64,000 nt of DNA. Source: Nitrospira sp. GTDB taxonomy: Bacteria > Nitrospirota > Nitrospiria > Nitrospirales > Nitrospiraceae. Positions 5,019 to 44,396 of this stretch are shown here, in pieces; the first letter of the stretch is position 1, and every line of letters starts with the position of its first letter. A model generated the notes under the pieces. The model saw nothing but the letters and a program-made list of their open reading frames with translations, had not been told where the DNA came from and made no database searches. The DNA is taken from assembly GCA_024998565.1 (NCBI GenBank), contig JACOEM010000006.1, positions 124,001 to 188,000 of the forward strand, given 5' to 3'. A program made the position numbers and the translations under genes.

Positions 5019-5070
5019 AAGAGCAGCGATAGAAGTTCGGAGACGGATTCATGAGGGAGATTCAGGGACA

Positions 5071-23207: not shown

Positions 23208-23516
23208 ATGGCGGACCATCATGACAGCTGTTCGGGACTGGGGGTGTCGATCGCGTTTTTGAGCGGGGCGATGCTGGGTGCGATGGCGGCGATACTGTAT
23301 GCGCCCAGTTCCGGCGAGGAAACCCGTCGGGCGATCAAAGGCTATGCGCGTCGGACGGAGGACGAGGTCTTGGAAAGGGCCAAAGAGATCCGAGCGGATC
23401 TTTCCCACACCGTTGATGAGGCCAAGCGGTATCTGAAGGAGACCGAGGCGACGATTGCCGCGGCTTTGGCGGCGGGAAAGGAAGCGTTCAAGAAAGAAAA
23501 GACGGATCGGGCCTGA
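23208..23516 (+). CDS. YtxH domain protein
   Basis: 102 residues: a glycine-rich hydrophobic segment (LGVSIAFLSGAMLGAMAAILYAPSSGEE, here given only as its outline) followed by a charged helix with heptad-like repeats and a Lys-rich end. The YAPSSGEETRR motif is the YtxH signature. These are membrane-tethered stress or structural proteins of unknown mechanism. A GGGAGG site precedes the ATG. One base separates its stop from the oxidoreductase start. Confidence 0.8.
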   Translation: MADHHDSCSGLGVSIAFLSGAMLGAMAAILYAPSSGEETRRAIKGYARRTEDEVLERAKEIRADLSHTVDEAKRYLKETEATIAAALAAGKEAFKKEKTDRA

Positions 23517-23517
23517 A

Positions 23518-24435
23518 ATGTATGCCGTGCGATTTCACGGGCGCGGGGGGCAGGGCGCCAAGACGGCGAGCCGGATTCTCGGCACGGCGGCGTTTCTGAG
23601 CGGGTACCAGGCTCAGGATTCCCCGATCTATGGAGCCGAGCGCCGCGGGGCGCCGGTCGCGGCATTCACGCGGTTCGGCCGGGAGCCGATCCGCGAACGA
23701 GGGGTCATTGCCCATCCCGATCTGGTGGTGGTGGCCGATGCATCGCTGCTGAAGGATCCTGCAGCTCGTGTGTCGGACGGCATCACCGACCAGACCATCC
23801 TGTTCGTCAATTCGCCGCTGCATGCAGAGCAGATTCGCACGCAGAGCGGGTTGCCCGGTCGCATCACGACGTTGGGGGTGACGGAGATTGCCCTGCAGCA
23901 TTTCGGCCAGCGGGAGGCGATCAGCGCATTGCTCGGTGCCGTCGCCGCTCGGTTGTCCGACTTGCAACAGGAGCCGCTCCGGCAGGCCATTGCGCGGGAG
24001 TTGGGAGACCTCGGAGTAGCCCCGCTGATCATTGAGCGGAATCAAACCGTCGCGCTCACGTGTTATGAGTCGGTGCAGGTGATGGAGCGGGAGTCTGTGG
24101 CAGAGTCGGCGACTATCGCGACGACTTTCCACATACCGGTCTATGAATCGCCGAGCAGGGGGACGGCCAGGATCAGCGCCACCGGGAATTCCGTGCTGCG
24201 TGAAACCGGCGGGTGGCGGACGTTTAGGCCTGTGCTGGTCGCCGGCAAGTGTAACGGCTGCTGGCTTTGTTTCGTCTATTGCCCCGACGGGGTGATTTCG
24301 ATGAACAAGGATGACCGGCCAATGATCGATTATGCCCATTGCAAAGGCTGTCAGATCTGCGTGCACGAGTGCCCCACGCATGCCCTCGTCGCGGAGCGGG
24401 AACAGGAAGGCGGAGTGGCATGGACAGCCAAATGA
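23518..24435 (+). CDS. 2-oxoacid:ferredoxin oxidoreductase, gamma-delta fusion
   Basis: 305 residues. Residues 1-185 are the gamma domain, starting with RFHGRGGQGAKTASRIL and containing the typical YGAERRGAPV. Residues 235-295 are the ferredoxin-like delta domain with two [4Fe-4S] sites, CNGCWLCFVYCP and CKGCQICVHECP. The fusion with alpha and beta genes next to it gives a complete PorABCD-type enzyme that interconverts a 2-oxoacid (probably pyruvate) and acyl-CoA with ferredoxin. Its 3' end overlaps the alpha gene by 16 bases. Confidence 0.92.
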   Translation: MYAVRFHGRGGQGAKTASRILGTAAFLSGYQAQDSPIYGAERRGAPVAAFTRFGREPIRERGVIAHPDLVVVADASLLKDPAARVSDGITDQTILFVNSPLHAEQIRTQSGLPGRITTLGVTEIALQHFGQREAISALLGAVAARLSDLQQEPLRQAIARELGDLGVAPLIIERNQTVALTCYESVQVMERESVAESATIATTFHIPVYESPSRGTARISATGNSVLRETGGWRTFRPVLVAGKCNGCWLCFVYCPDGVISMNKDDRPMIDYAHCKGCQICVHECPTHALVAEREQEGGVAWTAK

Positions 24436-25658
24436 TGACCGGCAACCTGGCGGCGGCCTGGGGAGCGAGGCTGGCCGACGTGGATTACATTCCTGCGTTT
24501 CCCATCACGCCGCAAACGGAAATTGTGGAAGCGCTGGCCAAATGGTGTGAAGGCGGTGAACTGGCGGCGCGGTTCGTCACGATGGACTCTGAGCATTCGA
24601 TGATGACGGCGGCGGGCGCGGCAGAGGCCACGGGGGCACGGGTCTTCACCGCCACATCCAGCCAGGGATTGCTCTATGCCTTCGAAGTGCTCTACTCGAT
24701 CTCGGGCTGGCGTGCCCCGCTCGTGCTGGTCAACGTATCGCGGGCACTGGCTGCGCCCATTACGTTGGAGTCGGATCATAACGATGTGTTGGCGGCGCGT
24801 GATTCCGGTTTTCTGCAGATCCATGCCGAGACCTGCCAGGAGGTGTTGGATTCGATTTTGATGGCCTATCGGATCGCAGAGGATGAGCGGGTGATGTTGC
24901 CGGTCATTGTGAATCTGGACGGCTTTTCGCTCTCGTTCACGCGTGAGCCTGTTAGCATCCCGGATGCGGAGCAAGTGCGGACGTTTCTGCCACCGTTCCG
25001 TCCCGCTCACCTCGGGTTCAGCGCGTCTGTGCCCCACTCGTTAGGGGTGGCGGTGATCGGCGGGACGCCCTATGCCTATTTCCGGCATCAAATGCATCTG
25101 GCCTCGATCAATGCCCTAGAGGTGCACGGTGAAGCCGCTGCGTCCTTCGAGCAGGTATTCGGTCGGCGCTACGATGTGGTCGAGGGATATCGGCTGGACG
25201 ATGCGGAGGATGTGCTCGTGATGACGAATTCCTGTGCCGGTACAGGCAAGGCGGCGGTCGATGCTGCCAGGGCAGAGGGGAAACGGGTGGGCCTGTTGCG
25301 GCTCCGGATGATTCGGCCCTGGCCGGCGGATGCCATCCGTGATGCATTGCGAGGGCGTCGCGCTGTGGCTGTGTTGGATCAGAATCTCGCGCCGGGGCAG
25401 GGTGGCATTCTGTTTCAGGAGATTGCCGCTTCCCTGTACCATGAAGTGGAACGGCCGCGGGCACTCTGTTCCTTCATCGGAGGGCTCGGGGGCCAGAATT
25501 TGTCGGTGGAGGAGTTGCGCGCGATCTTCGAGCAAACAGCGAAAGCCGGAGTCAGCAGAAAAGGAATCGGTCCGGTTCTCCTCTACACTCAAGCCGAACA
25601 TCGGGAGATGACTCAGCTCCAGATGGTAGCGGCAGGAAGCGTGAAACGTGAAACGTGA
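24420..25658 (+). CDS. porA: 2-oxoacid:ferredoxin oxidoreductase, alpha subunit
   Basis: 412 residues with the alpha-subunit core: FPITPQTEIVEAL near residue 25, TMDSEHSMMTAAGAAEATGARVFTATSSQGL and, in the C-terminal part, VLDQNLAPGQGG. FPITPQT favours pyruvate over 2-oxoglutarate as substrate, but this is only indicative. ATG 24420 has GGCGGAG upstream. The last codons (GSVKRET) are encoded by a family-A repeat, so the C-terminus has been rewritten by the element. Confidence 0.9.
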   Translation: MDSQMMTGNLAAAWGARLADVDYIPAFPITPQTEIVEALAKWCEGGELAARFVTMDSEHSMMTAAGAAEATGARVFTATSSQGLLYAFEVLYSISGWRAPLVLVNVSRALAAPITLESDHNDVLAARDSGFLQIHAETCQEVLDSILMAYRIAEDERVMLPVIVNLDGFSLSFTREPVSIPDAEQVRTFLPPFRPAHLGFSASVPHSLGVAVIGGTPYAYFRHQMHLASINALEVHGEAAASFEQVFGRRYDVVEGYRLDDAEDVLVMTNSCAGTGKAAVDAARAEGKRVGLLRLRMIRPWPADAIRDALRGRRAVAVLDQNLAPGQGGILFQEIAASLYHEVERPRALCSFIGGLGGQNLSVEELRAIFEQTAKAGVSRKGIGPVLLYTQAEHREMTQLQMVAAGSVKRET

Positions 25659-25721: not shown

Positions 25722-26651
25722 ATGTGGCAACGAGAGACGTTTAAGAAGATCAAGCAGGTTCCAGGTGAGGAGCATGTGCTTCCGGGAAGCGCGCTCTGCG
25801 CAGGGTGCGGCGGGTTGGAGTCGTTGCGACTTGCGGCGAAGGTGCTCGGCGACGAGGTCGTGTATGTCAACGCGGCCGGTTGCTTCACCATGTTGGCGGC
25901 CTATCCCTATACGTCATTCAAGGGCTCATGGCTCTATACGACGATGGGCTCCGCGCCTGCCGGTGCGCAGGGCGTACGTGATGCGTTGGACGTATTGATC
26001 GCCAAGGGTCGGTTACCGAAGAGCGACAACCTGAAAGTCGTGGTGCTGGGGGGCGACGGTTCAACCTACGATATGGCGCTGTCGTCCACCTCGGGCGCGA
26101 TGAATCGCGGACTCGATTTCTATTACATCTGTTACGACAACGAGGCGTACGGGAACACCGGCATGCAGCTGTCCCCGGCGACTCCTTATGGGGCGCGGAC
26201 GGCGACGTCGCCCTGCAGCCTGCAGCATCCGAACGGGGCATCTCAAGAGAAGAAAGACATCTTTGAAATCTGGCGCGCGCACAAGCCGCCGTACATCGCG
26301 ACCGTCGCGCCGCGCTATCCGCTCGATTTGGAGGAGAAATTCGCGCGGGCGGCTGCGTACACGGGACCGAAGATGTTTCTCGCCTTAGCGGCCTGTCCGA
26401 CTGGCTGGCTCTACGATCCCGGGGAAACGCCGGAAGTCGCGAAGCTGGCGGTCGAGACCGGGCTCTGGCCGCTGAAGGAAGCCATCAATGGAGTGGTCAC
26501 CCACACTTACATTCCGAAGCGCAGGCCGGTCGAGGCCTATCTCAAGTTGCAAGGGCGTTTTCGGCACCTCTTCGAACCGACCGTGCAGACGGAGGCGATT
26601 CAGCACATTCAAGGGCGCGTGGACGCCTATTGGCTACAGGTGAAGGGCTAA
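25722..26651 (+). CDS. porB: 2-oxoacid:ferredoxin oxidoreductase, beta subunit
   Basis: 309 residues. It binds thiamine diphosphate: LGGDGSTYDMALSSTSGAM with NEAYGNTGMQ forms the GDG-x(26-28)-N pattern. Cysteines in ALCAGCGG and elsewhere ligate a [4Fe-4S] cluster. Length and motif order match PorB. It follows alpha after a repeat-filled spacer of 63 bases, and ends 28 bases before the broken HdrA-like gene. Confidence 0.92.
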   Translation: MWQRETFKKIKQVPGEEHVLPGSALCAGCGGLESLRLAAKVLGDEVVYVNAAGCFTMLAAYPYTSFKGSWLYTTMGSAPAGAQGVRDALDVLIAKGRLPKSDNLKVVVLGGDGSTYDMALSSTSGAMNRGLDFYYICYDNEAYGNTGMQLSPATPYGARTATSPCSLQHPNGASQEKKDIFEIWRAHKPPYIATVAPRYPLDLEEKFARAAAYTGPKMFLALAACPTGWLYDPGETPEVAKLAVETGLWPLKEAINGVVTHTYIPKRRPVEAYLKLQGRFRHLFEPTVQTEAIQHIQGRVDAYWLQVKG

Positions 26652-30925: not shown

Positions 30926-31411
30926 ACGCTCTCCCCTCAGAATCCACTCTCGCTGAAGCTCGAAGCGGCGCTGACTTGTGTCTCCGGTGCCGGGCATCCG
31001 GCTGTGGCGTCTCGCAACAGCGAAGGTTCCGAAAGTGGGTCATTCCTCCTCGCCTCACCGGATGTCATGGTAGATTGGCGGTCTCTTATTTCCGTTTCTT
31101 TTCACGCTCTTGGAGGAGGCGTCCCCCGGTCATTCCTCCCTGACCCCTTGGCATCATACCTGTAATATGAGAGAGCGTGGAGGAGGGTCGCTCGGATGTA
31201 CGGGACGGCAGGAGCGTCTAGTGCGTGAACGAACAGGAGGTAGCGTGGGAAGCAAGCACTGTCCTCAATAGGTTGAGCCGAAGGGCGGTGTGCCGCCAGC
31301 GGAATAGCACATGAGGTCTGTATGATGTTTCGATACCTATCTGTTCACGAGATCCGGACAGGATGGAATCAAGCTGGTTGTCGCTTCCCATCGACGAATA
31401 GGACCATGCGA
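30926..31411. other. Intergenic region without supported gene
   Basis: No family signature in any frame. Short GGAGGAGG and GGAGGAGGG stretches occur at about 31113 and 31183 but the frames behind them are short and not conserved-looking. It probably holds the arsA terminator and the promoter of the heme cluster, neither of which I can place exactly. Confidence 0.4.
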
Positions 31412-31891
31412 ATGTGGCTGAATGGAGGCGCCTGGATCTTGACCCTGGCGGCGATCATACCGATCGGAGGCTGTGTGGACCATGGTGTCGGATCGCAGAG
31501 GCGTGATCCTCCTCCCGTTCACCTCCCGGATGTGCGCACGCCGGTCCGACTCGATGCCGAGGCCCGACAGGAACATCGCGCCGTCATGCTGCAACATTTG
31601 GAGACGGTTCAAGCCATCGTTGCCGCGTTGGTCGACGAGGACTACCGGCTCGCTCAAGGCTTGACCGAAACGCACTTGGGCTTTTTCATGCACCGGCACG
31701 CGATGGCTCGCCAGCAGCCGGAGAACTTTCCCCCGGCCTATCATGACCTGGCGATGGCGCATCATGCCGCCGCGGAGAAGTTGGCCGATGCGATGCCGTC
31801 GCGGGATCTAAAGCAGATCCTGCCCGAGTTCAACAAGGTGTTGAAAGCCTGCGTTGCCTGTCACCTGGAGTACAAACTGCGTAGTTCATAA
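31412..31891 (+). CDS. Cytochrome c'-like lipoprotein
   Basis: 159 residues. The signal peptide ends in the lipobox PIGGC (Cys21). The rest is helical, with the single heme motif CVACH at 147-151 near the C-terminus, as in class II cytochromes. Histidines in HLGFFMHRHAM and HHAAAEKL could be further ligands. ATG 31412 has AGGA eight bases upstream; ATG 31406 is two codons earlier. It opens a five-gene heme and hemerythrin cluster. Confidence 0.78.
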   Translation: MWLNGGAWILTLAAIIPIGGCVDHGVGSQRRDPPPVHLPDVRTPVRLDAEARQEHRAVMLQHLETVQAIVAALVDEDYRLAQGLTETHLGFFMHRHAMARQQPENFPPAYHDLAMAHHAAAEKLADAMPSRDLKQILPEFNKVLKACVACHLEYKLRSS

Positions 31892-31905
31892 CCAAGGAGA
31901 GCCGC

Positions 31906-32388
31906 ATGTCCGACGGAAAGATCAGCGTCACGTTCGAGCAGGATCACGACCGACTCGATGCCCTGTTCACCACGTTTCAGGAGCAGAAGCGAAAGGATTT
32001 CGCCAAGGCCAAAGAGGCGTTCGCCGCCTTCAAGTTCGGTCTGCAACGCCACATCGTCTGGGAGGAAGACGTGCTGTTTCCCAAATGGGAGGAGAACTCC
32101 GGTATGGCGGAAGGCGGTCCGACGCAGGTCATGCGAACCGAGCATCGGATGATCGGCGATTGCCTGGAAGCGATTCACCAGAAGGTCCAGGCGCAGGATC
32201 CGGAGAGCGATCGGGACGAGCAGCGGTTGTTGGATATTCTGAAATCGCACAACATGAAGGAGGAACGGATTCTCTATCCGTCGATCGATCAGGTGATCAG
32301 CGATCAAGAACGGGCAGAGCTGTATCAAGCGATGAAAGACATCCCTGAAGAGCGATACCGGACCTGTTGCGGGAGCGGGCACTCATGA
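31906..32388 (+). CDS. Hemerythrin-domain protein
   Basis: 160 residues. A hemerythrin HHE fold with the iron-ligand pattern: H in FEQDHDRLD, H in LQRHIVWEED, H in RTEHRMI, and H in LKSHNMKEERILYP, with acidic ligands at WEED and EERI. These proteins bind oxygen, NO or iron. The C-terminal RTCCGSGHS is a further possible metal site. AAGGAGAG lies before the ATG. The stop overlaps the ATG of the next cytochrome. Confidence 0.87.
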   Translation: MSDGKISVTFEQDHDRLDALFTTFQEQKRKDFAKAKEAFAAFKFGLQRHIVWEEDVLFPKWEENSGMAEGGPTQVMRTEHRMIGDCLEAIHQKVQAQDPESDRDEQRLLDILKSHNMKEERILYPSIDQVISDQERAELYQAMKDIPEERYRTCCGSGHS

Positions 32389-32771
32389 GCCGCCCGGGCC
32401 TGGGTGCTGCGTTGTGCCTCCTGGGATTGCTGATCGTTGCCACTGTGCCGCGATGGACCTATGCGGTGCCGTACAATGGTGTGATTGCGTCGGAGGCGGA
32501 AGGGTCGTCGATTGAGTGGACGATAGCTGACGCCGGTGGCATGGTGGCCAATCCGCACAGCGATTTGATCTTTCGGGCGACGGGCGCCACCACCTGCCTG
32601 GATTGTCACCGAGCAGGCAAAGAGGGGGCGGTGAGTCCGCACGTGCAGGATAATGCCTTGGTCCAAGAACTCAAAGCCAAGGCCAAGGGGGTTCATGGCC
32701 CCGGGCGATTCGCAGACTGTCTGCGGTGCCATGCCGGCGGCAATAAAGGCGTGGAAAAGTACCGGAAGTAA
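32385..32771 (+). CDS. Diheme cytochrome c
   Basis: 128 residues with a signal peptide (cleavage after TYA) and two heme motifs, CLDCH (71-75) and CLRCH (112-116). The stretch ANPHSDLIFRATGATT followed by GVHGPGRFADCLRC is repeated, with changes, in the pentaheme protein of this cluster. Coupled to the hemerythrin gene by ATGA. The function is unknown; it is probably a periplasmic electron carrier. Confidence 0.82.
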   Translation: MSRPGLGAALCLLGLLIVATVPRWTYAVPYNGVIASEAEGSSIEWTIADAGGMVANPHSDLIFRATGATTCLDCHRAGKEGAVSPHVQDNALVQELKAKAKGVHGPGRFADCLRCHAGGNKGVEKYRK

Positions 32772-32786
32772 GTGAGGGAGCGAATG

Positions 32787-32837
32787 GCGTATGGCCGATG
32801 ATGGCTTGCGTTGAGTTACTTACTATAAGCCATACGC
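32787..32837. repeat. Dispersed repeat, family B
   Basis: GCGTATGGC (32787-32795) and GCCATACGC (32829-32837) form perfect nine-base arms around a 33-base loop. The sequence TATAAGCCATACGCTATCAG has a relative at about 41737-41775. Confidence 0.5.
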
Positions 32838-32871
32838 TATCAGCTCTCCTCTTGTTCTGAGCGAGCGAGGT

Positions 32872-33459
32872 ATGACGTCTGTGCGGCTGCGTGTCCTTGT
32901 CGTGACTGTCGTCGTGGTCGTGGCGGTGTCGAGCGCCCTGATGTTCGAGGCCCTGCTCAGTCTCGGGGAGACCACCCCCTTCGGGCATACGCGGTATGGC
33001 CATGCAGCCGGCTGGGTCGGCCTCGCCGTGACCCTGCTGGTATTTGTGTATCCGTTGCGCAAGCGAATCAGCCCGGCCCGCCGCTGGCCGCGAGGCTGGT
33101 TTCGAGTTCATATGGTGGCGGGGGTGGTGGGCCCGTTGCTGATTTTTCTGCACTCCGGCGCACATTATCACGCGTTGGTGCCGATTCTCGCGATGCTGTC
33201 CATGGTGATCGTGGTCGTCAGCGGGATCGTCGGGCAGGCGGTACATGCATTCAGCCTGAGAGCGCTCAACGATCAACGCCGCCGACTCCAGCACGAAGGA
33301 TTATCCGACAGCGATATAGACGCGCAGTTGCATGGCATGGCGTCCCAAGAGGAAGCGTTCCGCATGTGGCAAGCGATCCACGCGCCGATGACGTTGATGT
33401 TTCTCGTGTTCACGCTGTTGCATGTGGCGGGGGCGTTGTTCTTCGCAGGAATCTCGTGA
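32872..33459 (+). CDS. b-type cytochrome-like membrane protein
   Basis: 195 residues with four or five helices. Histidines lie within or at the ends of helices (GHAAGW, VHMVAG, HSGAHYH, AIHAPMTL, LLHVAGALF), the pattern of bis-histidine b-heme proteins of the cytochrome b561 or ferric-reductase type. It follows the diheme and precedes the pentaheme gene, so it may link the quinone pool to the periplasmic hemes. Confidence 0.72.
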   Translation: MTSVRLRVLVVTVVVVVAVSSALMFEALLSLGETTPFGHTRYGHAAGWVGLAVTLLVFVYPLRKRISPARRWPRGWFRVHMVAGVVGPLLIFLHSGAHYHALVPILAMLSMVIVVVSGIVGQAVHAFSLRALNDQRRRLQHEGLSDSDIDAQLHGMASQEEAFRMWQAIHAPMTLMFLVFTLLHVAGALFFAGIS

Positions 33460-33462
33460 CGG

Positions 33463-34017
33463 ATGCGATACCATCCGCTGCCAAGAACTGCGGTGCCGGT
33501 GGTGGCTCTCACGACGCTTGTGCTCCTCGTCTGGATCGGCTGGGGATCGGTGAGAAGTCCCGCCTCATTCTGGGCGCCGGGAGATCTGAGTCGGTACCAC
33601 GTCGATCAGGCCGGGTGCCTCCACTGCCACGAACCATTCCGCGGGCCCAATCCGGCCCGCTGTGTGAGTTGCCATTCGGATCGGTATTTCGCGGATCGAG
33701 CGACGCCTGCCGTGACGACCTGGCATCGTGACCTGGTGGCGCAACGGACGGCCTGCACGGCCTGCCACACGGAACATCGCGGGGCGCTTGCTCAAATTAC
33801 CGAGCGCACGAGGACCAACCCTCACGGGGAATTTGTCTTCCGTGCAACCGGCACCGGTTCCTGCACGGCCTGTCACGAGTTCGGCGCGAGGGTTGCGACC
33901 AGGCCGACGCTGAGAGATGAGCCGATCGTGCGGCAGTTGTATGAACACGGGCGTGGCGCGCATCAGCCTGGTCGTATCGCCGAGTGCTTGGCTTGTCATG
34001 GCAGGGGAGCATCCTGA
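33463..34017 (+). CDS. Pentaheme cytochrome c
   Basis: 184 residues with an N-terminal anchor or signal and five heme motifs: CLHCH (52), CVSCH (67), CTACH (98), CTACH (134) and CLACH (175). The last 65 residues repeat the diheme protein pattern: NPHGEFVFRATGTGSC and AHQPGRIAECLAC. It starts three bases after the membrane b-type protein stop, so the two form one unit. It is probably an extracytoplasmic electron relay. Confidence 0.85.
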   Translation: MRYHPLPRTAVPVVALTTLVLLVWIGWGSVRSPASFWAPGDLSRYHVDQAGCLHCHEPFRGPNPARCVSCHSDRYFADRATPAVTTWHRDLVAQRTACTACHTEHRGALAQITERTRTNPHGEFVFRATGTGSCTACHEFGARVATRPTLRDEPIVRQLYEHGRGAHQPGRIAECLACHGRGAS

Positions 34018-34038
34018 AGGGAGTATGATGGAGTGGCG

Positions 34039-34572
34039 ATGCGATTGAATCTCGAACAAGCCTTTCCCACCGAACAAGCCCTGCGCGATATGATCGTGAC
34101 GCGCAGAGTCTGTTTCGATCACGACCCGTTCTATGTGAAGACCGGTGCCGGTCATGTGGTCCAGATCGGATTCCAACTGAATCTCTATGCGGCGTTTCGC
34201 GATCCGACCCAGTTGCCGCTCAATGATGATGCCGAGCATCGTGAAATTCTTATCGACCTGCAACGGCTTTGCCGGGTGTTCTTTCAGACGCTGGATCTTC
34301 TGAAGCCCTGCGAGCATCCGCAGCCTCCCGCGCATCGCATCGTCTTCTCCCCGGAGCGAAACAATCGCGCGGAGGTCTGCCTCCAGATCCCGATCTTCGA
34401 TCTGGCGCATTATGCCGACCGCTCGGCTCGCCAGGTGCAGGATCTTCTTGCGACGGCGGAATGCCTGCTGACCCATGTCGGAGCAAGACGGCGGGTGTGG
34501 GATGAAGAGGGGCGCAAACCGGAATCTTCCACCACTGGTTGTGAAGGCCGTGCGGCTGCAGAAGGAGGCTAG
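34039..34572 (+). CDS. Protein of unknown function in heme cluster
   Basis: About 177 residues, soluble, with no signal peptide or known motif. It has scattered Cys and His (RRVCFDHDPF, LKPCEHP, AHRIVF, RAEVCLQ). The first half is rich in charged residues; a helical stretch lies near residue 80-100. ATG 34039 has GGAG six bases upstream; GTG 34033 is an alternative. It starts 21 bases after the pentaheme gene and may be a cytoplasmic regulatory or accessory protein of the cluster. Confidence 0.6.
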   Translation: MRLNLEQAFPTEQALRDMIVTRRVCFDHDPFYVKTGAGHVVQIGFQLNLYAAFRDPTQLPLNDDAEHREILIDLQRLCRVFFQTLDLLKPCEHPQPPAHRIVFSPERNNRAEVCLQIPIFDLAHYADRSARQVQDLLATAECLLTHVGARRRVWDEEGRKPESSTTGCEGRAAAEGG

Positions 34573-34677: not shown

Positions 34678-34968
34678 ATGGCTAAGACACGTTTTGAGTG
34701 GGATCAGGCCAAAGACGCGACGAACCAGGAAAAGCATGGGGTGTCATTTCAGTTAGCTCAATATGCTTTTGCTGACTCACGACGTGTCATCGCCAAAGAT
34801 GTCACCCATAGCAGGTCAGAGGACCGCTTCTACTGCTTCGGGGAGGTCGAGGGCGGCATTATGACCGTCCGGTTTACCTATCGAGCTTCGGTTATTCGAA
34901 TCATCGGCGCCGGCTATTGGCGAAAGGGAAAGGCAGTCTATGAGCACGAAAATAAGATATCGCGATGA
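34678..34968 (+). CDS. brnT: BrnT-like toxin (ribonuclease fold)
   Basis: 96 residues with the BrnT pattern: FEWDQAKDATNQEKHGVSF at the start (Asp, Lys, His positions used by the RelE-like toxin), then EDRFYCFGEV and RASVIRIIGAGYW. BrnT arrests growth by RNA cleavage until neutralised by BrnA. GGAAGG precedes the ATG. It overlaps the antitoxin gene by 29 bases. Confidence 0.85.
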   Translation: MAKTRFEWDQAKDATNQEKHGVSFQLAQYAFADSRRVIAKDVTHSRSEDRFYCFGEVEGGIMTVRFTYRASVIRIIGAGYWRKGKAVYEHENKISR

Positions 34969-35236
34969 GCCCATGGGCGAGATTCGTGTCGTTCCAGACT
35001 TTCTCCCTTCTCCCGCCGAATTAGCGTTTCGCGATGAGGGGGTTAAAGTGACGTTGGCCCTGAGCAGGAAGAGCGTGGACTTCTTCAAGGCTGAGGCATC
35101 CCGGCATCACACCCAATACCAGCGCATGATTCGCCGCTTGCTCGATGCCTATGTCGAGAGGCAGCCTCAGGACCGTCCCTCAGGTTCACCGCGGGCCGCA
35201 CGCGGACGAGCGGCTCGCAAGCGCACTGCTGCGTAA
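34940..35236 (+). CDS. brnA: BrnA-like antitoxin
   Basis: 98 residues. The middle (KVTLALSRKSVDFFK, QYQRMIRRLLDAYV) is a ribbon-helix-helix DNA-binding fold. The end is basic and disordered (AARGRAARKRTAA). Position and overlap with brnT fit the antitoxin. It probably binds the palindrome upstream of brnT. Confidence 0.8.
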   Translation: MSTKIRYRDEPMGEIRVVPDFLPSPAELAFRDEGVKVTLALSRKSVDFFKAEASRHHTQYQRMIRRLLDAYVERQPQDRPSGSPRAARGRAARKRTAA

Positions 35237-36356: not shown

Positions 36357-39092
36357 TTATCTCTTCCCCGCTACCCTGATCCTCGCATCCACGATGCGAC
36401 AACCCTGGCCGGGCGGCAGGATGAAGATGGGATTCAAATCGAGTTCCACGATCTCCGGCACCTCTTCGACCAGCCGTGACAACCTGAGCAAGAGCTCTTG
36501 AACCGCATCGACATCGCCCGGTGGATGGCCGCGATAGCCTTGCAGTAGACGATACCCCTTGATGCTGCGGATCAGATCGGCGGCGTCCAGTTCCGTCAAC
36601 GGCGTGATGCGGAAGCGCACGTCCCCCAGAATTTCGACGTGAATCCCGCCCAGCCCGAATCCGATCAGGGGACCGAACGAGGGATCCTGGACCATGCCCG
36701 CCATCACCTCGATGCCGCCGGTCACCATCGGTTGGATCAGGACCCCTTCCATGGCGTCAAGGCTCTGATCCTGCGCGAGTCGTGCGGCGATCTGTTCAAA
36801 CGCGCGGCGAACCTCAGTCTTCGTGTTGAGGTTCAAATGTACACCGCCGATCTCCGTTTTATGGACGAGGGTATGGGAGGCCAGTTTGACGGCGACCGGA
36901 AATCCGATCTGCTCGGCAAGCAGGGCAGCCTCCTCAGCGCCGGTCGCGACGCCGCCAGGCGGCAGTGATATGGACATTGCGCTCAACAGGGCCCGCGTTT
37001 CGGCAGTCGTCAGCCAGCCCTCTCCGCGTGCGGCCAGGGCGTCATGACAGATGCGGCTCACGGTCGGGAGGTCCAGATCATCGAAATCCGGCACCATGCC
37101 GGCGGGGCGTTCTCGCCACTGCACATAGCCGGAGATTTTTCCCAGGGCGCGCGCGGGGAGTTCCGGCAGTGCAAAGGTGGGGATGGTGTCACCCGTGAAG
37201 GAGAATCTCCGCTCGCGATCCGTTTCCACCATCCACCCGATGTAGATCGGCTTCTTGATGGATGCCGTGGCTCGCGCGTCGAGGATGCCCTTCTTGATGC
37301 CTTCGGCAATCGGGTCCACGTCGGTGGCCGTGACGGCAATGTAGAGAATGATGAGGGCATCGATATCGTCGGATTTCAAGAGCGCGGCTATGGCCTGGGC
37401 GTATTGTTCGGGATCGGCCGAGGCGATCAGGTCCACCGGGTTGCGCAAGGCCGCAGCCGGCGGCAGAAACGAGGCCAGGTGAGTCATGGTCGCTTGCGAC
37501 AATTCAGGAACATCCAGGCCGCTCGCCTCGCAGGCATCGGCGCAGAGGATGGCCGGTCCGCCGGCGTTCGTGATGATCCCGACGCGGTTGCCCTTCGGCA
37601 GCGGCTGATCCGAGAGGCCTGCCGCCAATGCGAACATGTCTTCGAGGGTCTCGGCGCGCAGGATCCCGGTCTGCTGAAACAGGGCCTCCACCGCGACATC
37701 ATTGGCGGCCAGCGCGGCTGTGTGGGATCCCGCGGCGCGTTTGCCCGAAGAGGTACGGCCTGCTTTCAGGACGACGATCGGTTTGTTGCGGCTGACCCGG
37801 CGGGCGATCTGCGCAAACCGTCTCGGATTGCCGAACGATTCCACATACAGCAGGATGACGTTCGTCGCGGGATCGTTCTCCCAGTATTGCAGCAGGTCGT
37901 TGACCGACACATCCGCCTTGTTGCCGACGCTGACGAAGGTGGAAAGACCGAGCTGCAATCGTTCGGATGCGGCGAGCAGGGCCAACCCCAGGGCGCCGCT
38001 TTGTGACGACATGGCAATGGAGCCGGTGAGGGGAAACGTGGAGGTGAACGTGGCATTGAGCCGCACGGCCGGATCGGTGTTCAAGATCCCGAAGCAATTG
38101 GGGCCGACCATGCGCAGGCCCTGTTGCCGAACCTTTGCGAGAAGCTGGTCTTGCAGACGGCGTCCCTCTGCTCCGACTTCGGCGAATCCCGCGGTGATGA
38201 CCACCAGCGCACGGACACCGGTCGCCGCACAGTCGTCTACGACAGAGAGGACGGCGTCTTTGGGGACGGCGATGACGGCCAGATCGACCGGCTCCGGCAA
38301 TGCCCGGAGCGACGGATAGGTCTGCATGCCGGCGATGGTGGCGGCATGCGGGTTGATTGCGTAACAGCGGCCACAAAAGCCATTGCTGCTCAGCGCATCG
38401 AGCAACCGGTAGCCGATACTCTGGGGAGCGCGCGAGGCGCCGATCACGGCGACGGCCTGAGGATGGAAGAGCGGCCGGAGCGAAGCCGTGGTGGCGACCC
38501 GTTCACGCCACTCGGATTGACGTACGCTATGGTCGGTCGGTGTCAGCGAGAGCTCGACCTCCATGTCGCCGCCTTCGACATGTTCTTCCATGGGAAGTCC
38601 GGAGGAGGCGAACACCTCGCGCATGGCCACATTGTCTGCGTGGGTGATGGCCCAGAGCCTCGTGAAGCCATGGCGGATCGCCAGCAGCGCCAGTCGCTCC
38701 AGGAGCAGCGTGCCCAAGCCATGCCCATGGAGCCGGTCGTCCACGGCCATGGCCACTTCTGCCTGGTGCGAGTCCCGCGCATGATACGAACCGGATGCGA
38801 TGACACGGAGGGCGCCGTCCTGCCGGCGAAGGGCAATCACGGTGAGGCTACGCCGCGGGTCGGATGGGTCGCAGAGTTTGCGGATTACCTCGGCGGGTGG
38901 CGCAGTTTCGGAGAAAAACCGGTGGCGTCTGGCTTCCGGCGACAGGCGTTCGACGAAGTGCTGCAATTCATCCGCGTCGGATGGCTGCGCAATACGCAGA
39001 AGCGCCGTCGTGCCGTCGCTCAAGACGACATGACCGGCGTCAGGACCCTCGTCACGGGAGGGCGGCATGTGGAGTGGGCGGATACGTTGCAT
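36357..39092 (-). CDS. GNAT/ADP-forming acyl-CoA synthetase fusion
   Basis: 911 residues. Residues 20-185 are a GNAT acetyltransferase with the CoA-binding RLHGHGLGTLLLE. Residues 200-680 match the alpha part of ADP-forming acetyl-CoA synthetase (CoA-binding VIGASRAPQSIGYRLL; SSQSGALG; histidine at about 455 in GSHTAAL, the phosphorylated residue), and 690-911 the ATP-grasp beta part. Related Pat enzymes acetylate AMP-forming acetyl-CoA synthetase and have lost the synthetase activity, but here the phosphohistidine is kept, so both roles are possible. It is four bases downstream of the thiol membrane protein. Confidence 0.87.
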   Translation of the reverse strand: MQRIRPLHMPPSRDEGPDAGHVVLSDGTTALLRIAQPSDADELQHFVERLSPEARRHRFFSETAPPAEVIRKLCDPSDPRRSLTVIALRRQDGALRVIASGSYHARDSHQAEVAMAVDDRLHGHGLGTLLLERLALLAIRHGFTRLWAITHADNVAMREVFASSGLPMEEHVEGGDMEVELSLTPTDHSVRQSEWRERVATTASLRPLFHPQAVAVIGASRAPQSIGYRLLDALSSNGFCGRCYAINPHAATIAGMQTYPSLRALPEPVDLAVIAVPKDAVLSVVDDCAATGVRALVVITAGFAEVGAEGRRLQDQLLAKVRQQGLRMVGPNCFGILNTDPAVRLNATFTSTFPLTGSIAMSSQSGALGLALLAASERLQLGLSTFVSVGNKADVSVNDLLQYWENDPATNVILLYVESFGNPRRFAQIARRVSRNKPIVVLKAGRTSSGKRAAGSHTAALAANDVAVEALFQQTGILRAETLEDMFALAAGLSDQPLPKGNRVGIITNAGGPAILCADACEASGLDVPELSQATMTHLASFLPPAAALRNPVDLIASADPEQYAQAIAALLKSDDIDALIILYIAVTATDVDPIAEGIKKGILDARATASIKKPIYIGWMVETDRERRFSFTGDTIPTFALPELPARALGKISGYVQWRERPAGMVPDFDDLDLPTVSRICHDALAARGEGWLTTAETRALLSAMSISLPPGGVATGAEEAALLAEQIGFPVAVKLASHTLVHKTEIGGVHLNLNTKTEVRRAFEQIAARLAQDQSLDAMEGVLIQPMVTGGIEVMAGMVQDPSFGPLIGFGLGGIHVEILGDVRFRITPLTELDAADLIRSIKGYRLLQGYRGHPPGDVDAVQELLLRLSRLVEEVPEIVELDLNPIFILPPGQGCRIVDARIRVAGKR

Positions 39093-39095
39093 GAA

Positions 39096-40298
39096 TTACC
39101 CCGAGAGCAGGTCCGGTTTCACGAGCAGCAGCAGGCCGAGCCCGATCATGACTGCCCCGCTGATCAGTTTCAACCACCGCCCTTCGCGTTCCTCCAGCTT
39201 GTGGCGGCTCAGGGTGATCACCGCGATCGTCACCATCAACGCGTCATCGAAAATGTAGGCCGCGTTGTAGAGGGCAAGGTAGCCATAATATTGCCAGGTG
39301 GCGAGCGCCTGCGTGCTGAGAATGTGCGTGTAGAGTGCGGGAAATCCGGCGGTACACAGCAGCTCGACCACGTTCACCAGCCCGGCCAGGATCACGATCC
39401 CGATCAGGGCGCCGGTGAGATTTTCCGCCTGAACGATCCGGCGCAGCCGCGCATAGAGCCCCGGTTTGGCCGCGGCCGGAATACTCAACGACAACCCCTG
39501 CCGGAAGGCGAAGAAATCTTTCACGTTGACCGCGCCGATTAGGATCGCCACGCCGCCCAGCGTGAGTTGGACCGTACGGGAGAGGCCCACGATGAGAAAC
39601 ATATTCAGCCAGGCGGCCATGAAGATAAAATACAGCAACCCGCTCATCAGGACGAAGGTGCCGGCCACGAGCGACATCTTGACGCGGTCCTGCAATGAGA
39701 CCAGGAGCGACAGGAGAAACAACAGCACCCACATCGCGCAGGGATTGAAGCCGTCGAGAAGCCCGATGGCCAGCGTGAAGAGGGGGAGGCCGATGTCCGG
39801 ATAACTGAGGCGGCCGAACCAGGGGAGCAGGATGCTGTCTTCTCCGGCGGAGGTGTGATCTGCAGGCGTGCTGCAGGCCGGTTGTGTCGGGCGGCAGGCG
39901 GACAACGGTTCGGAATCCAGGGAGGGAGCCGCCCGATCAAGGAGTGCAAGCAGGCGGGTGCCGGTGGTCCCGGCATCTTGATAGCCGATGATCAATTCGC
40001 CTTGCAGATAAAAAGCCGGAACGCCGATCAGCGTCACCGCCTGCCGCCTTGCCAACGTCTCTAAACGGGTGAGCGCGGTCTGATCCTGACCGACATCCCG
40101 AACCAGAATGTGCAGGGCGGGGCGACGTTGCCGAAGCTCGCGAAGAAATGCCTTGGCGGCTTCGCAATGCGGACAGCCGGCGCGGACGAAGACTTCCACG
40201 TCCGCAGTCGGTTCGGAGGCGTGAACAGACACCTCTGAACCGAGGAGCCACAGGCAGACGAACACGAGGCCTGCGTAAAGAATCCTCCGCCGACGCAT
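39096..40298 (-). CDS. Glutaredoxin-like and CcdA/DsbD-like membrane fusion
   Basis: 400 residues. A signal or anchor and a thioredoxin-like domain with CPHC (42-45) and the cis-proline IGVPAFYL are joined by a linker with three more cysteines to a membrane domain of about six helices from residue 165. Cysteines C187 (FNPCAMW) and C315 (ELLCTAGFP) occupy the positions of the CcdA/DsbD membrane pair. It likely moves reducing power across the membrane to periplasmic cysteines, for example in cytochrome c maturation. Confidence 0.8.
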   Translation of the reverse strand: MRRRRILYAGLVFVCLWLLGSEVSVHASEPTADVEVFVRAGCPHCEAAKAFLRELRQRRPALHILVRDVGQDQTALTRLETLARRQAVTLIGVPAFYLQGELIIGYQDAGTTGTRLLALLDRAAPSLDSEPLSACRPTQPACSTPADHTSAGEDSILLPWFGRLSYPDIGLPLFTLAIGLLDGFNPCAMWVLLFLLSLLVSLQDRVKMSLVAGTFVLMSGLLYFIFMAAWLNMFLIVGLSRTVQLTLGGVAILIGAVNVKDFFAFRQGLSLSIPAAAKPGLYARLRRIVQAENLTGALIGIVILAGLVNVVELLCTAGFPALYTHILSTQALATWQYYGYLALYNAAYIFDDALMVTIAVITLSRHKLEEREGRWLKLISGAVMIGLGLLLLVKPDLLSG

Positions 40299-40322
40299 CG
40301 CTGTGCCTGTGGCGCCTATCGG

Positions 40323-40685
40323 CTAGCTGACGAAGTCCGGTGTTGCGACCGATCGGATATAGGACAAGACGTCCAGCATCTGTTGGTCGGTCAGTTTGCC
40401 TCGATACCCATGCATGGGGCTGAAGAGCGCTCCGTTCGCGATCGTGATCAGCAGTTCCCAATCGGTTTTGGCGCGCGAGTTGACGGATTGAAAATTCGCG
40501 GGCCTCACAATCAGGTATTGGCCGTCGGGCCCGGCCCCGTCCAGTTTGTCTCCGTGGCAACGCAGACATTGTTTTTCATAAATGGCCTGTCCGTCGCGCG
40601 GATTGCCCCGGTTGGTTTGTGCGGTGGCCCAGGTGCTGCCCAGGATGACGAGGCAAACGGCAGAAAGAATGCTGAACGTTTTCAT
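40323..40685 (-). CDS. Monoheme cytochrome c
   Basis: 120 residues: signal peptide ending in WATAQ, heme motif CLRCH, Met ligand candidate in LFSPMHGYRG and the C-terminal helix QMLDVLSYIRSV. It is a small class I cytochrome. It lies between the thiol membrane protein and a universal stress protein gene, 24 bases upstream of the former. AAGGAG lies upstream of the ATG. Confidence 0.86.
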   Translation of the reverse strand: MKTFSILSAVCLVILGSTWATAQTNRGNPRDGQAIYEKQCLRCHGDKLDGAGPDGQYLIVRPANFQSVNSRAKTDWELLITIANGALFSPMHGYRGKLTDQQMLDVLSYIRSVATPDFVS

Positions 40686-40734
40686 GCGCAGGCTCCTTTA
40701 TGGTTCGGCGCAGTGCGCCGGATTGGTCACAGAC

Positions 40735-41592
40735 TCATCGGACGATCAAGACCGGACAGGGCACGTGGTGCAGGAGGGCGTGGGAGATGCTTCCCAGGAG
40801 AAATCGCTCCAGCCCCTTGCGTCCATGGGAACCGATGACCAGAAGATCCGCCGACTTGGCGCGCTCCGTCAGGATGTCGGTCGGATCGCCGACGGTCACC
40901 TGGGTGCCGACCGTATAGCGGTGATTCATGACCGAGGCGGCCAAATTCTTCACCAGGTCTTCGGCCGAGCGTACGGCGATCCCGGTCCAATCCTGCAGCG
41001 GAAACAGGCTGAATGGATCGGTGGACGGAATCTGCCGTACGACGCTCACGATAGTGAGATCGACCGGATTCTTGAACGGATGGCTGAGGAGCCAGGCCTT
41101 GATCCGGGCGCCATCCTCATGTCCTTCGACGGCGACCGTCACGCGCTTGACCGGCCCCTCGCGCTCCTTCACGATCAAGGTCGTGCAGTCTGCATGGAGT
41201 GCGACGCGATGGGAGACGCTGCCGAGGACGAATTCGCCGACGCGTCCCCGCCCGCGCGCACCGATCACGATCAGGTCTGCATGCGTTTCCCGCGCCTTGT
41301 CTAGAATCAGCGAGGCCGGTTTGCCGAATTCGCACACCCGTGTGACGGCGAGGCCCTCGGAGGGCAGCAGGGTGGAGGTGTGGTCGAGCAACTGTTCTCC
41401 CGCTTTCTCCATGGCCTTCCGGAATTCGTCGTACCCCTGCATGTTGCTCACTTCTGCGACGATCGGATACTGAAACATGCCCAAGTCGATCCCATGCACC
41501 AGGATGACCTCGTGCAGATCGTACAGATAGGAAACTTCACGAACGGCTGCGAACGCCTGTTCCGACCAGTCGAGTGCGATCAGGGCACGCAT
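40735..41592 (-). CDS. Tandem-domain universal stress protein
   Basis: 285 residues, two UspA domains. ATP-binding loops are GARGRGRVGEFVLGS and GSHGRKGLERFLLGS. ATG 41592 has AAAGGAG six bases upstream; the frame reaches further back to 41673 but that part is repeat sequence. It is the second of three tandem USP genes in the window, most similar in plan to the one at 61309. Confidence 0.9.
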   Translation of the reverse strand: MRALIALDWSEQAFAAVREVSYLYDLHEVILVHGIDLGMFQYPIVAEVSNMQGYDEFRKAMEKAGEQLLDHTSTLLPSEGLAVTRVCEFGKPASLILDKARETHADLIVIGARGRGRVGEFVLGSVSHRVALHADCTTLIVKEREGPVKRVTVAVEGHEDGARIKAWLLSHPFKNPVDLTIVSVVRQIPSTDPFSLFPLQDWTGIAVRSAEDLVKNLAASVMNHRYTVGTQVTVGDPTDILTERAKSADLLVIGSHGRKGLERFLLGSISHALLHHVPCPVLIVR

Positions 41593-41918
41593 AAGACTCC
41601 TTTCGCCGGCAGGATGCTGAAACAGTCCTCCACCCTCGCTCCCGTCACTCGTGAAGCGTGAAGCGTATCTCATCGGAGTCGGAGCCTATGGCTCGTGGCC
41701 TAGAGCTGAGAGTTGCGACGCCCACACTCGATTTCCGGCTATAGGCTATGAGCTGGATACCATACGCCCTTTTCCGCGGACAAGAGGCGAACGACCTTTC
41801 ACGAACGACGGACGAAGCCGGCGGAATGCTTGAGCCCCCTGCGAAGAGATTCATCAGTCTTCCCCTACGCCGTGCTCTTGGATCACGCAGGATCTATGCA
41901 CAGCTGTTCTGCAGCCGC
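41593..41918. other. Spacer composed of repeat elements
   Basis: A gene-free region between the USP gene and the SnoaL-like gene, filled by family-A half elements at both ends and a family-B piece in the middle. No coding signature was found on either strand. Confidence 0.5.
41643..41820. repeat. Composite repeat: family A halves enclosing family B
   Basis: GTGAAGCGTGAAGCGTATCTC at the left (given here in outline) and GACCTTTCACGAACGACGG at about 41792 are the two ends of family A. Between them lie AGCCTATGGCTCGTGGCC and GGCTATAGGCTATGAGCTGG, family B. This looks like one element inserted in another. Confidence 0.5.
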
Positions 41919-42470
41919 CTAGAACAACGGGTGCGGTGACGTGCCGAATGGCATGAACCGCGGGGAATCGCCGACGTTGCCGCGAATGCGCCACTGCCCG
42001 TCATCGAGCGTCATGTAGTGCACTTCTTCATACCAACTGTCGATCGGCACACGTAACCCGCCGGTTTTCGACAGGCCCGACAAACTACCTGTACAGGTGA
42101 CCTCGATGATGGTCTTGGAGCCGGATCCGACTCTGATCATCCGGGAAAAGTGATGGGTATCGGACAGTTCCCGGAATTCGTCGAACAGGTTGATCCAGAC
42201 CTTCCGCATGTCGGCCTTCTTCAGTCCGTGATAATTGTACTGCTCCGAATACAGGGCCATGATGCCGTCCACGTCGCCGGCACGAAGCGCCTGTTCGGCT
42301 TGCCTGAAGGTTGCCAGCACGTGATCGACGGTGGCCTGATCGAGGTCTGCTGCCGCTCCGGGAAGGAGCTGCATCTCGGCGGTTGCCGGAGACCATGTCA
42401 GGGTGACCATCAGAAGTCCGCCGATGAGAAACCTGCTCCATCGATCCCACGTCCGTTCCCCTCCACCCAT
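41919..42470 (-). CDS. SnoaL/NTF2-like exported protein
   Basis: 183 residues. A signal peptide (cleavage after ATAE) precedes an NTF2-like fold: FRQAEQALRAGDVDGIMALYSE is the first helix-turn of SnoaL-like proteins, and the C-terminal strands include VHYMTLDDGQWRIRG. Such folds serve as enzymes or binding proteins; no catalytic pair is obvious. ATG 42470 with AGGAG upstream is the start. Confidence 0.72.
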   Translation of the reverse strand: MGGGERTWDRWSRFLIGGLLMVTLTWSPATAEMQLLPGAAADLDQATVDHVLATFRQAEQALRAGDVDGIMALYSEQYNYHGLKKADMRKVWINLFDEFRELSDTHHFSRMIRVGSGSKTIIEVTCTGSLSGLSKTGGLRVPIDSWYEEVHYMTLDDGQWRIRGNVGDSPRFMPFGTSPHPLF

Positions 42471-42501
42471 GACCACTCCTTCTTGCCGATGGTGCGGTTG
42501 C

Positions 42502-42996
42502 CTACCCGACCCAGGTGACGCGGATAAAATCTTCATCCTTATCGTATTGCAGTTCCAATTCGCCGTGATGCGCATGTTTCAGCGCTTCGCCGATTCGTCT
42601 CGGTAAGTGGGTATCGGTCGTGAGAACGACAAGCCCCTCTGCCCGGTTCTCGATCGTCATGATGCGGGCCAGCGGGTATTCCTTTTTTTCCTGCGCCTCG
42701 GCGTTATGGATCAGGCCCATGACTTGGTCCCGGTGCTGGTCTTTGTAGGCTCCCTTGAGCGTGACGAACCCTTTCGGGTTTTTGTCTTCGATGCGCAGAC
42801 AAGCCGGACAGACGATCTCATCGGCCCCCGCCGGTTTGGGTCCCCAGGTCCAGCGCCCCTTATGGAACAGCGCCCCGCAGGTCTTGCAGACCGTGGGCTC
42901 CTTCAACTTCCCCGGCATCTTGTAGGTGTCGTGTTGACCTTCCTGCACGAATCGATCGCGGCGCGCGGCGTGGCCGCCTTCAGTTTGTTTGTTCAT
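42502..42996 (-). CDS. BCAM0308 family zinc-binding protein
   Basis: 164 residues. A treble-clef-like zinc site is formed by CKTCGALFHKGRW and VCPACLRI. The rest (KGFVTLKG, HNAEAQEKKEYP) matches the BCAM0308 family, related to the N-terminal part of NMD3. Members are found in stress or heat-shock neighbourhoods, as here with Hsp20 and a phosphoribosyltransferase. ATG 42996 follows GGAATCG. Confidence 0.78.
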   Translation of the reverse strand: MNKQTEGGHAARRDRFVQEGQHDTYKMPGKLKEPTVCKTCGALFHKGRWTWGPKPAGADEIVCPACLRIEDKNPKGFVTLKGAYKDQHRDQVMGLIHNAEAQEKKEYPLARIMTIENRAEGLVVLTTDTHLPRRIGEALKHAHHGELELQYDKDEDFIRVTWVG

Positions 42997-43051
42997 CGGT
43001 GCGATTCCTTTTCTGTGCCGGGTCATCCGCTCTGTGGCCCGCACTGTGATG

Positions 43052-43705
43052 TTACGATCGGTTGATAGACGCTTCTTCCGCCAGGTTGAGATATTGCAGC
43101 ACCTCACGGTCTTCGACCTGTTCGAAGTCCCGATAGAAGTTACCGACGGCATAAAACGGATCCGGTACCCGCAGCACGATCAATTGGTCGACCAGTTTTC
43201 GCGCCTCCTCCACGGTCGAGTGCGGGCCCACCGGAATGGCCCCGATCACGCGACGCGGGTTTCCCTGGCGGGCGGTCGCAACGGAGGCAAAGAACGTCGC
43301 GCCTGTAGCGAGACCGTCATCGACGAGAATCACGGTCCGGTCCTTCAGGTCGGGGAACGGGCGTCCCTGCCGGTACAGGGCGACACGCCTGGTGACTTCC
43401 TTTTGCTGCGCCTGCACGGCGGCTGAAAGTTGTCGTTCTGTGAGCGACAAGCCGACGAGCGCCTCTCGATTCCAATAGACGGCGCCTGTTTCGCTGACGG
43501 CTCCCAGGGCATATTCAGGATTACCGGGCGCGCCGATTTTTCGCGTAATGAGCACATCAAGCGGCAGATGCAGGGCCAGGCTCAATTGATAGGCCACTGC
43601 CACTCCTCCGCGCGGCAACGCGAGGAGAATGGCGGTGGGATCGCTGCGAAAGGGGATCAATTCCTGTGCGAGGAGTTCTCCGGCTTCTTCACGGTTCTTG
43701 AACAT
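43052..43705 (-). CDS. Phosphoribosyltransferase-like protein
   Basis: 217 residues with the PRPP-binding loop VILVDDGLATGAT and a PRTase fold (ILLALPRGGVAVAYQL at the start). Proteins of this kind often lie beside Hsp20 and USP genes and may act in stress-linked nucleotide metabolism; the substrate is unknown. It lies upstream of the BCAM0308 gene on the same strand. Confidence 0.85.
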   Translation of the reverse strand: MFKNREEAGELLAQELIPFRSDPTAILLALPRGGVAVAYQLSLALHLPLDVLITRKIGAPGNPEYALGAVSETGAVYWNREALVGLSLTERQLSAAVQAQQKEVTRRVALYRQGRPFPDLKDRTVILVDDGLATGATFFASVATARQGNPRRVIGAIPVGPHSTVEEARKLVDQLIVLRVPDPFYAVGNFYRDFEQVEDREVLQYLNLAEEASINRS

Positions 43706-43756
43706 GACCCTCTACTCCCACTGCCGTTTGCCCTGCATGCTGTGGCCCGAACGGGG

Positions 43757-43906
43757 CTACCACAGTCCGCCCGTGACCCCTACGCCGATCAGGAACAGTG
43801 CCACGACGATCACCAGGACGATCAGCCACCGGTGATGGTGTGTTGCACCCTCGGGATGCCAATGGATTTCCCAGGGGATGTCCAGGTATCGAGGATGTCG
43901 GAACAT
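43757..43906 (-). CDS. 49-residue membrane protein
   Basis: ATG 43906 has GGAAGGAG upstream and opens 49 codons to a TAG stop. A His-rich cytoplasmic start (HPRYLDIPWEIHWHPEG, HHHR) is followed by one helix (WLIVLVIVVALFLIGVGV) and GGLW. It lies 16 bases after the hsp20 stop, so it is probably part of that operon. The function is unknown; a metal- or heme-binding role for the histidines is only a guess. Confidence 0.6.
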   Translation of the reverse strand: MFRHPRYLDIPWEIHWHPEGATHHHRWLIVLVIVVALFLIGVGVTGGLW

Positions 43907-43922
43907 GGCAGGCTCCTTCCGT

Positions 43923-44396
43923 TTAGGACACCTTCACGTCGATCGATTTCGGCTTGGCTTTCTCCGATTTCGGGAGATGCACTTTGAGGACGCCGTCTTT
44001 GTATTCCGCCGCGACCTTGCTGCCGTCGGCATCTTCCGGCAGGGTGAAGCTGCGCAAGAAGCTGCCGTACGCGCGTTCTACGCGATGATATTTCTTGTCT
44101 TTTTCTTCCTTCTCGTATTTGCGCTCGCCGGAGATCGCGAGCACATTGTCCTGCACCGTGAGTTTCACGTCTTCCTTCTTGACCTCGGGCAGTTCCGCCT
44201 TGATCAGATATTCCTTGTCGTCTTCGGTGATGTCGACCAAGGGAGACCATTCCGCGACCGAAATCGACTCCTTCTGGCCTTCCGCTTTGGTCGGTGTCCG
44301 ACCCCAGAGGGCGGACAAGCGCTGTTCCATGTCCTCAAGTTCCCGCCATGGATTCAACTGTCTCCGAAATGGTTCCCAACGGGTGAGTCCACTCAT
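43923..44396 (-). CDS. Hsp20/alpha-crystallin small heat-shock protein
   Basis: 157 residues. The alpha-crystallin domain (about 50-145) contains the family core EEDKEYLIKAELPEVKKED in outline and the conserved A-x-x-x-G-V-L motif as YKDGVLKVHLPK. ATG 44396 has AAAGGAG upstream. It is an ATP-independent holdase. It heads a minus-strand stress group with the small membrane protein, phosphoribosyltransferase and zinc protein. Confidence 0.92.
   Translation of the reverse strand: MSGLTRWEPFRRQLNPWRELEDMEQRLSALWGRTPTKAEGQKESISVAEWSPLVDITEDDKEYLIKAELPEVKKEDVKLTVQDNVLAISGERKYEKEEKDKKYHRVERAYGSFLRSFTLPEDADGSKVAAEYKDGVLKVHLPKSEKAKPKSIDVKVS

Follow-up and report, generated by a model that had tools for sequence, protein, structure and literature searches.

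Di-iron protein and cytochrome genes at the distal end of a predicted POR operon in Nitrospira

Introduction

At low O2, N. marina strongly increases a POR of the Pyrococcus/Thermotoga type, an enzyme that is probably sensitive to O2 and that was stated to be missing from all other Nitrospira but N. alkalitolerans (PMC8115632). The shielding of such enzymes by di-iron proteins has a precedent in the microaerophile C. jejuni, where mutants showed that the hemerythrins HerA and HerB shield Por and Oor, which are O2-labile 2-oxoacid:acceptor oxidoreductases, from O2 (PMC4257069). A further type of HHE di-iron protein is formed by the RIC/YtfE/ScdA proteins, which repair iron centres and are represented here by YtfE, in which the ligand set is H84, H129, E133, H160, H204 and E208, with E159 (PMC9268430).

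Among membrane cytochromes, CbcL, MtoC and MtrH, which are quinone oxidoreductases of the inner membrane, consist of a transmembrane diheme b-type part, with two bis-His b hemes, and a periplasmic multiheme c-type part (PMC9129911, PMC6295460), fused in one polypeptide with six helices and nine c hemes. Here, we describe a locus in a 64,000-nt stretch of Nitrospira DNA (the window) in which genes for an HHE di-iron protein and for cytochromes that recall parts of these systems are found close together.

Gene content and conservation of the cluster

Six ORFs, designated P1 to P6, were confirmed at 31406–34572, all on the forward strand (Table 1), and the gene content, single strand and overlaps reported in an initial annotation were all found as described. 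The nine heme or di-iron sites counted there correspond to eight c-type heme motifs and one di-iron site in 3.2 kb, to which P4 adds two predicted b hemes. The start of P3 overlaps the end of P2 by 4 nt, and P4 and P5 are separate genes, 3 nt apart.

Table 1. Features of the P1–P6 cluster and its upstream region in the 64,000-nt window
Feature	Coordinates	Strand	Assignment and basis
YtxH-like small gene	23208–23510	+	Putative, named from sequence; stop 1 nt before porGD start
porGD	23512–24435	+	POR gamma fused to delta 2x[4Fe-4S] domain; TIGR02175, TIGR02179; two CxxCxxCxxxC motifs
porA	24420–25658	+	POR alpha; POR_N, PFOR_II; PorA_Arch below cut-off
porB	25722–26651	+	POR beta, TPP-binding; TPP_enzyme_C; PRK11865 PorB below cut-off
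ars segment	26633–31514	+	Small ORF, arsM, arsC, arsD, arsA and 5' end of P1 (signal peptide)
P1	31406–31891	+	Lipoprotein class II c-type cytochrome, one heme; PF01322 above cut-off and conservation
P2	31906–32388	+	Cytosolic HHE di-iron protein; RIC-type ligands H14, H49, E53, H80, H115, E119
P3	32385–32771	+	Diheme c-type cytochrome; paralog of P5 C-terminal domain
P4	32872–33459	+	Membrane b-type cytochrome, five predicted helices; His pairs H80/H170, H94/H184
P5	33463–34017	+	N-terminally anchored periplasmic pentaheme cytochrome; triheme part and P3-like diheme domain
P6	34033–34572	+	Soluble, no family assigned; optional member

The window belongs to a Nitrospira of the N. defluvii clade, its P4 being 93% identical to that of Ca. 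N. defluvii. The order P1–P6 is repeated in more than 20 Nitrospira genomes, and the block is retained down to 50–60% protein identity, in other genera. In a survey of 175 genomes of the family, P1 was found in 82, P2 in 133, P4 in 42 and P6 in 56. P1 and P2 lie at most 3 kb apart in 70 of 79 family genomes having both, and P4 and P2 in 36 of 38 (kinship ignored in both counts), while P5 directly follows P4 in loci read with enough flank. P1 is set apart from P2–P4 in three genomes. Judged by these comparisons, the P1–P6 order exceeds chance, and the co-occurrence check that the initial annotation had proposed, run across the family genomes, found that the gene set does recur together. One close relative is without P4 and most of P5 and has kept por-P1-P2-P3 and P6.

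P6 had no match in Pfam or NCBIfam, and its predicted model (pLDDT 74.5) had no PDB match below E 0.001. It was rejected as an obligate part of the cluster, as it is often located elsewhere in genomes. The P6 family is widespread in Nitrospirota (loci L146–L164), where RND efflux or metabolic genes are frequent neighbours, and at one locus (L160; coordinates 4078–6912) the homolog lies within a 944-aa ORF.

Directly downstream of P6, a BrnT-like toxin gene (79 bits) is followed by a BrnA-like partner that scored below cut-off (coordinates 34678–35236); a BrnT homolog also adjoins the cluster in several relatives. Elsewhere in the window, glucan synthase/phosphorylase-like, PPK2, ADP-forming acyl-CoA synthetase-GNAT, Usp, phosphoribosyltransferase and Hsp20 genes were found (coordinates 5071–8063, 20797–21858, 36357–44480 and 61309–62190), which, by their sequences, together resemble a low-O2/starvation island. 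A tRNA-Gly called by ARAGORN (61782–61861) lies inside a Usp gene on the same strand and is probably a false positive.

Linkage to a predicted POR operon

The initial annotation had treated the cluster as stand-alone, with a boundary (31412–34572) that leaves out its upstream partner, porGD-porA-porB. When the neighbouring genes were compared with those in the window, a porB gene on the same strand was found normally to precede P1 in relatives. It lies at most 700 nt from P1 or P2 in 33 of the 37 loci holding both (some genomes are counted twice, being present in two collections), and at 14 of 21 loci the start codon of P1 overlaps the porB stop by 4 nt; a 15th locus, with a doubtful start, would share this overlap. 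Such a stop/start overlap implies that these genes would form one transcript with translational coupling.

A porB gene of the window type was found in 55 of the 175 family genomes, and P1 or P2 is within 7 kb of it in 46 of these. The same 55 genomes include 54 with P2 (Fisher p 3e-7) and 47 with P1 (Fisher p 3e-12), kinship being ignored in both tests. P2 is also carried by 79 family genomes that have no POR of the window type and is not exclusive to it. The por-P1-P2 linkage is kept at three loci where P4–P5 were not found, and it survives in genomes with differing surroundings. On this comparative evidence, most relatives carry P1–P6 at the distal end, or tail, of a porGD-porA-porB operon. 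No FNR-type boxes were found upstream of por in relatives and matches inside the window were near chance. Promoter and terminator counts equalled those in shuffles.

In the window, an arsenic-resistance segment that is absent from close relatives and brings a different P1 signal peptide puts 4.8 kb between por and P1. Its breakpoints were placed by alignment with three other loci, and ArsM, ArsD and ArsA score above the NCBIfam cut-offs. As this segment splits the operon in the window, only the downstream half was seen in the initial annotation. The operon of N. defluvii is unbroken. A functional tie of the cluster to the ars genes was rejected in favour of an insertion or replacement, because in close relatives without the segment por is joined directly to P1. 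A similar ars order and spacing was seen at two loci of another Nitrospira genus, which suggests exchange between lineages.

Nature of the POR

porGD scored 130.7 bits against TIGR02175 (cut-off 81.1) and 91.3 bits against TIGR02179 (cut-off 60.05), porA scored 397 bits against PorA_Arch, under the cut-off of that model, and porB 263 bits against PRK11865 PorB, also under cut-off. Gamma, delta, alpha and beta subunits of the PorC/PorD/PorA/PorB kind are present, and the pyruvate equivalog cut-offs were not reached. The window POR is 26–31% identical to the other two OFORs of the genome, which share 44–49% with each other and look, by sequence, like the five-subunit type described in Nitrospira. 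It is assigned to the anaerobe (Thermotoga/archaeal) type as the third OFOR of this genome, is predicted to be a pyruvate enzyme and is probably oxygen-sensitive. It resembles the low-O2-induced POR of N. marina in its Pyrococcus/Thermotoga-type subunits and in being a third OFOR beside two five-subunit types, but SOD was proposed as the protector of the N. marina enzyme in a text that never mentions hemerythrin (PMC8115632).

P1 and P2

P1 has a lipobox (GGC), the only lipid anchor within the cluster, and a CVACH motif, the CxxCH near the C-terminus being a trait of class II cytochromes c (c'/c-556). It matched Pfam Cytochrom_C_2 with 28.1 bits (cut-off 26.5) in an alignment confined to the last 47 residues. 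The candidate sixth heme ligands, M61, H57 and H64, are all invariant and bear on the distinction between an open c' site and the Met of c-556.

P2 matched Pfam Hemerythrin HHE with 60.2 bits, and YtfE was the first match in a profile search of solved structures. All 55 sequences compared share H14, H49-x3-E53, H80 and H115-x3-E119, as well as E79 beside H80. These ligands match the YtfE set, in a pairwise alignment that is firm for the middle of the protein only, and E79 is the equivalent of E159, the Glu beside the third His in RIC/YtfE. However, E125 of the RIC/YtfE iron channel has no counterpart in P2, where Gly45 is found in 54 of the 55 sequences, and the ScdA_N domain with its DfCCgG motif is missing, the protein beginning at the HHE domain. 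A CC pair occurs at the C-terminus in 46 of the 55 sequences, a CCG-like ending that recalls the CCgG of RIC at the opposite end. The score against the NCBIfam RIC equivalog was 46.5 bits, far under its cut-off of 204.7. O2-carrier bacteriohemerythrins are defined by HxxxH in helix 3, and P2 was rejected as one of these as position 84 is never His in the 55 sequences. By its residues, P2 is a RIC-like HHE protein, outside RIC as tested. Its RIC/YtfE-type ligands, and the lack of any output domain beside its one HHE domain in the cytosol, argue against the oxygen or NO sensor suggested previously.

P2 and the window POR resemble the C. jejuni pairs in combining a di-iron hemerythrin fold with a 2-oxoacid:acceptor oxidoreductase. 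Unlike P2, however, herA is located upstream of iscS and nifU, outside any POR operon (PMC4257069), and HerA and HerB were described as ordinary hemerythrins, whereas P2 has RIC-type ligands and cytochrome companions; the precedent is therefore one of function only.

P3, P4 and P5

P3 contains two CxxCH motifs and P5 five, and P3 is ~40–50% identical to the C-terminal diheme domain of P5. P4 is b561-like, scoring 24 bits against PF01292, under the cut-off of 30.1, and its predicted model (pLDDT 81.4) had no PDB match below E 0.001. Among 29 relatives, distant paralogs included, the only invariant His residues are the four listed in Table 1, paired 14 residues apart, which predict two bis-His b hemes. 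The K/R-rich loop 62–78 is placed in the cytosol by loop charges; with five helices, loop 125–168 would then also be cytosolic and the C-terminus outside, such that H80/H170 would lie towards the cytosolic side and H94/H184 towards the periplasmic side, beside P5. P4 and P5 together share with CbcL, MtoC and MtrH the pairing of a transmembrane diheme b-type part, with two bis-His hemes predicted, and a periplasmic multiheme c-type part, but are encoded by separate genes and have five predicted helices and five c hemes.

P4–P5 was also found without por, P1 and P2 in Methylococcaceae, one Nitrosomonas genome and other Nitrospirales, and is a separable module. The proteobacterial copies sit among Nitrospirota copies in a midpoint-rooted tree with moderate support, suggesting transfer. 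P4 paralogs in other genomes have two kinds of partner, either a 21–27-heme protein or an FNR-like flavoprotein gene plus a 7-heme protein. At five loci of the first kind, a P4 paralog (~308 aa) precedes the 21–27-heme protein and another 21–23-heme protein is encoded close by; in other Nitrospira, this arrangement may serve as a long-range cytochrome conduit. At three loci of the second kind, genes for the FNR-like flavoprotein, P4-like b-type protein and 7-heme cytochrome are consecutive, and one of these adds a distant P6 relative. The P5 of Ca. N. defluvii (L038; coordinates 6990–7739, reverse strand) has seven CxxCH motifs via an in-frame repeat of ~66 residues.

Discussion

The linkage described above suggests that the six genes provide POR with its own guard and electron outlet, rather than forming a free-standing surface wire. 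The explanation that we favour, at about even chances, is that P1–P6 are the accessory redox half of a ytxH-porGD-porA-porB-P1-P6 operon, in which P2 shields the POR and P4–P5, P3 and P1 move electrons. It builds on gene content and order, the porB/P1 overlap in relatives, the ligand sets and the topology, all read from the sequences. An anaerobe-type POR would carry [4Fe-4S] clusters labile to O2 and NO, and the cytosolic, RIC-like P2 may shield or service these clusters when O2 or NO rises. P4 would place two stacked b hemes across the inner membrane. On the periplasmic side, P5 would carry electrons together with P3 and P1, linking the membrane to acceptors or donors there, such that electrons could exit the cytosol or the quinone pool at low O2. 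Co-transcription, protection of the POR and the direction of electron flow, together with any role for P1 and P6, are what we infer from that arrangement.

It is possible, but unlikely, that the por operon, a stress-type di-iron protein and the b/c pair only share a low-O2/starvation island, where they may be co-regulated and act independently. The modules do separate and recombine: P4–P5 occurs alone outside Nitrospira, many genomes have P6 at another site, and P2 is found by itself next to metal-efflux genes. The island genes for Usp, Hsp20, PPK2 and the ADP-forming acyl-CoA synthetase are present, and synteny reaches past the cluster. However, the 4-nt overlaps and spacings of 7–20 nt are tighter than regional synteny needs, and por-P1-P2 persists amid differing surroundings.

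A similarly doubtful reading makes P4-P5-P3-P1 the core of a CbcL-like relay from quinol to the periplasm, or further outward, with POR merely an electron source. The diheme b-type and multiheme c layout of P4–P5 is as in CbcL (PMC9129911, PMC6295460), and the pairing of a P4 paralog with 21–27-heme proteins in other genomes is consistent with it. Against this, the cluster has no outer-membrane conduit genes, and the broadest linkage is that of por-P1-P2, without P4–P5. The relay to the cell surface envisaged in the initial annotation is not supported, as the cluster contains no porin, beta-barrel or outer-surface decaheme gene and P1 is its only lipid-anchored product.

An NO/nitrite module, in which P2 and a cytochrome c'-like P1 handle nitrite-derived NO with electrons given by P3–P5, is improbable; a class II cytochrome and a RIC-like protein do occur together here in a nitrite oxidiser, and YtfE is reported to reduce nitrite to NO (PMC9052748), but P1 has three invariant candidate sixth ligands and the cluster showed no gene for an NO reductase. 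It is very unlikely that P2 acts in a dormancy island as a PA2171-like HHE protein of the persister or ribosome-binding kind, since the NF053874 model, although it spans P2 residues 11–146 and the neighbours are of dormancy type, scored 35.4 bits, well under its cut-off of 190 and below the 46.5 bits of the RIC model.

The explanation of P1–P6 as the accessory half of a POR operon can be taken further, though we regard the extension as rather unlikely: the operon would be a kit that equips an obligate aerobe, in one unit, with an anaerobe-type POR, a di-iron protein dedicated to guarding it and its own route for electrons across the membrane, adjacent to an acyl-CoA synthetase, for the conversion of pyruvate to acetate with ATP gain, or for CO2 fixation, at the oxic-anoxic edge. 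The ADP-forming acyl-CoA synthetase-GNAT gene is downstream on the other strand, and its part in forming acetate and ATP from pyruvate is a guess.

The component parts are of known kinds, and their combination at the operon level was not found described in the literature searched on Nitrospira, hemerythrin and cytochromes, which comprised titles and abstracts and few subscription papers. The earlier view that the genes belong to no named system holds for a conserved electron-transfer set with a membrane b/c-type relay, but not for a free-standing cluster, as in relatives it is the tail of the POR operon. Contrary to its published near-absence, the anaerobe-type POR is common in genomes of the Nitrospira family (55 of 175), a statement about the general type that does not imply orthology to the N. 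marina enzyme. The physical coupling of a POR operon, in Nitrospira, to genes for a di-iron protein and for a membrane cytochrome module means that only a few proteins would be needed to test directly by what means aerobic nitrite oxidisers carry out those steps of the reductive TCA cycle that are sensitive to O2.
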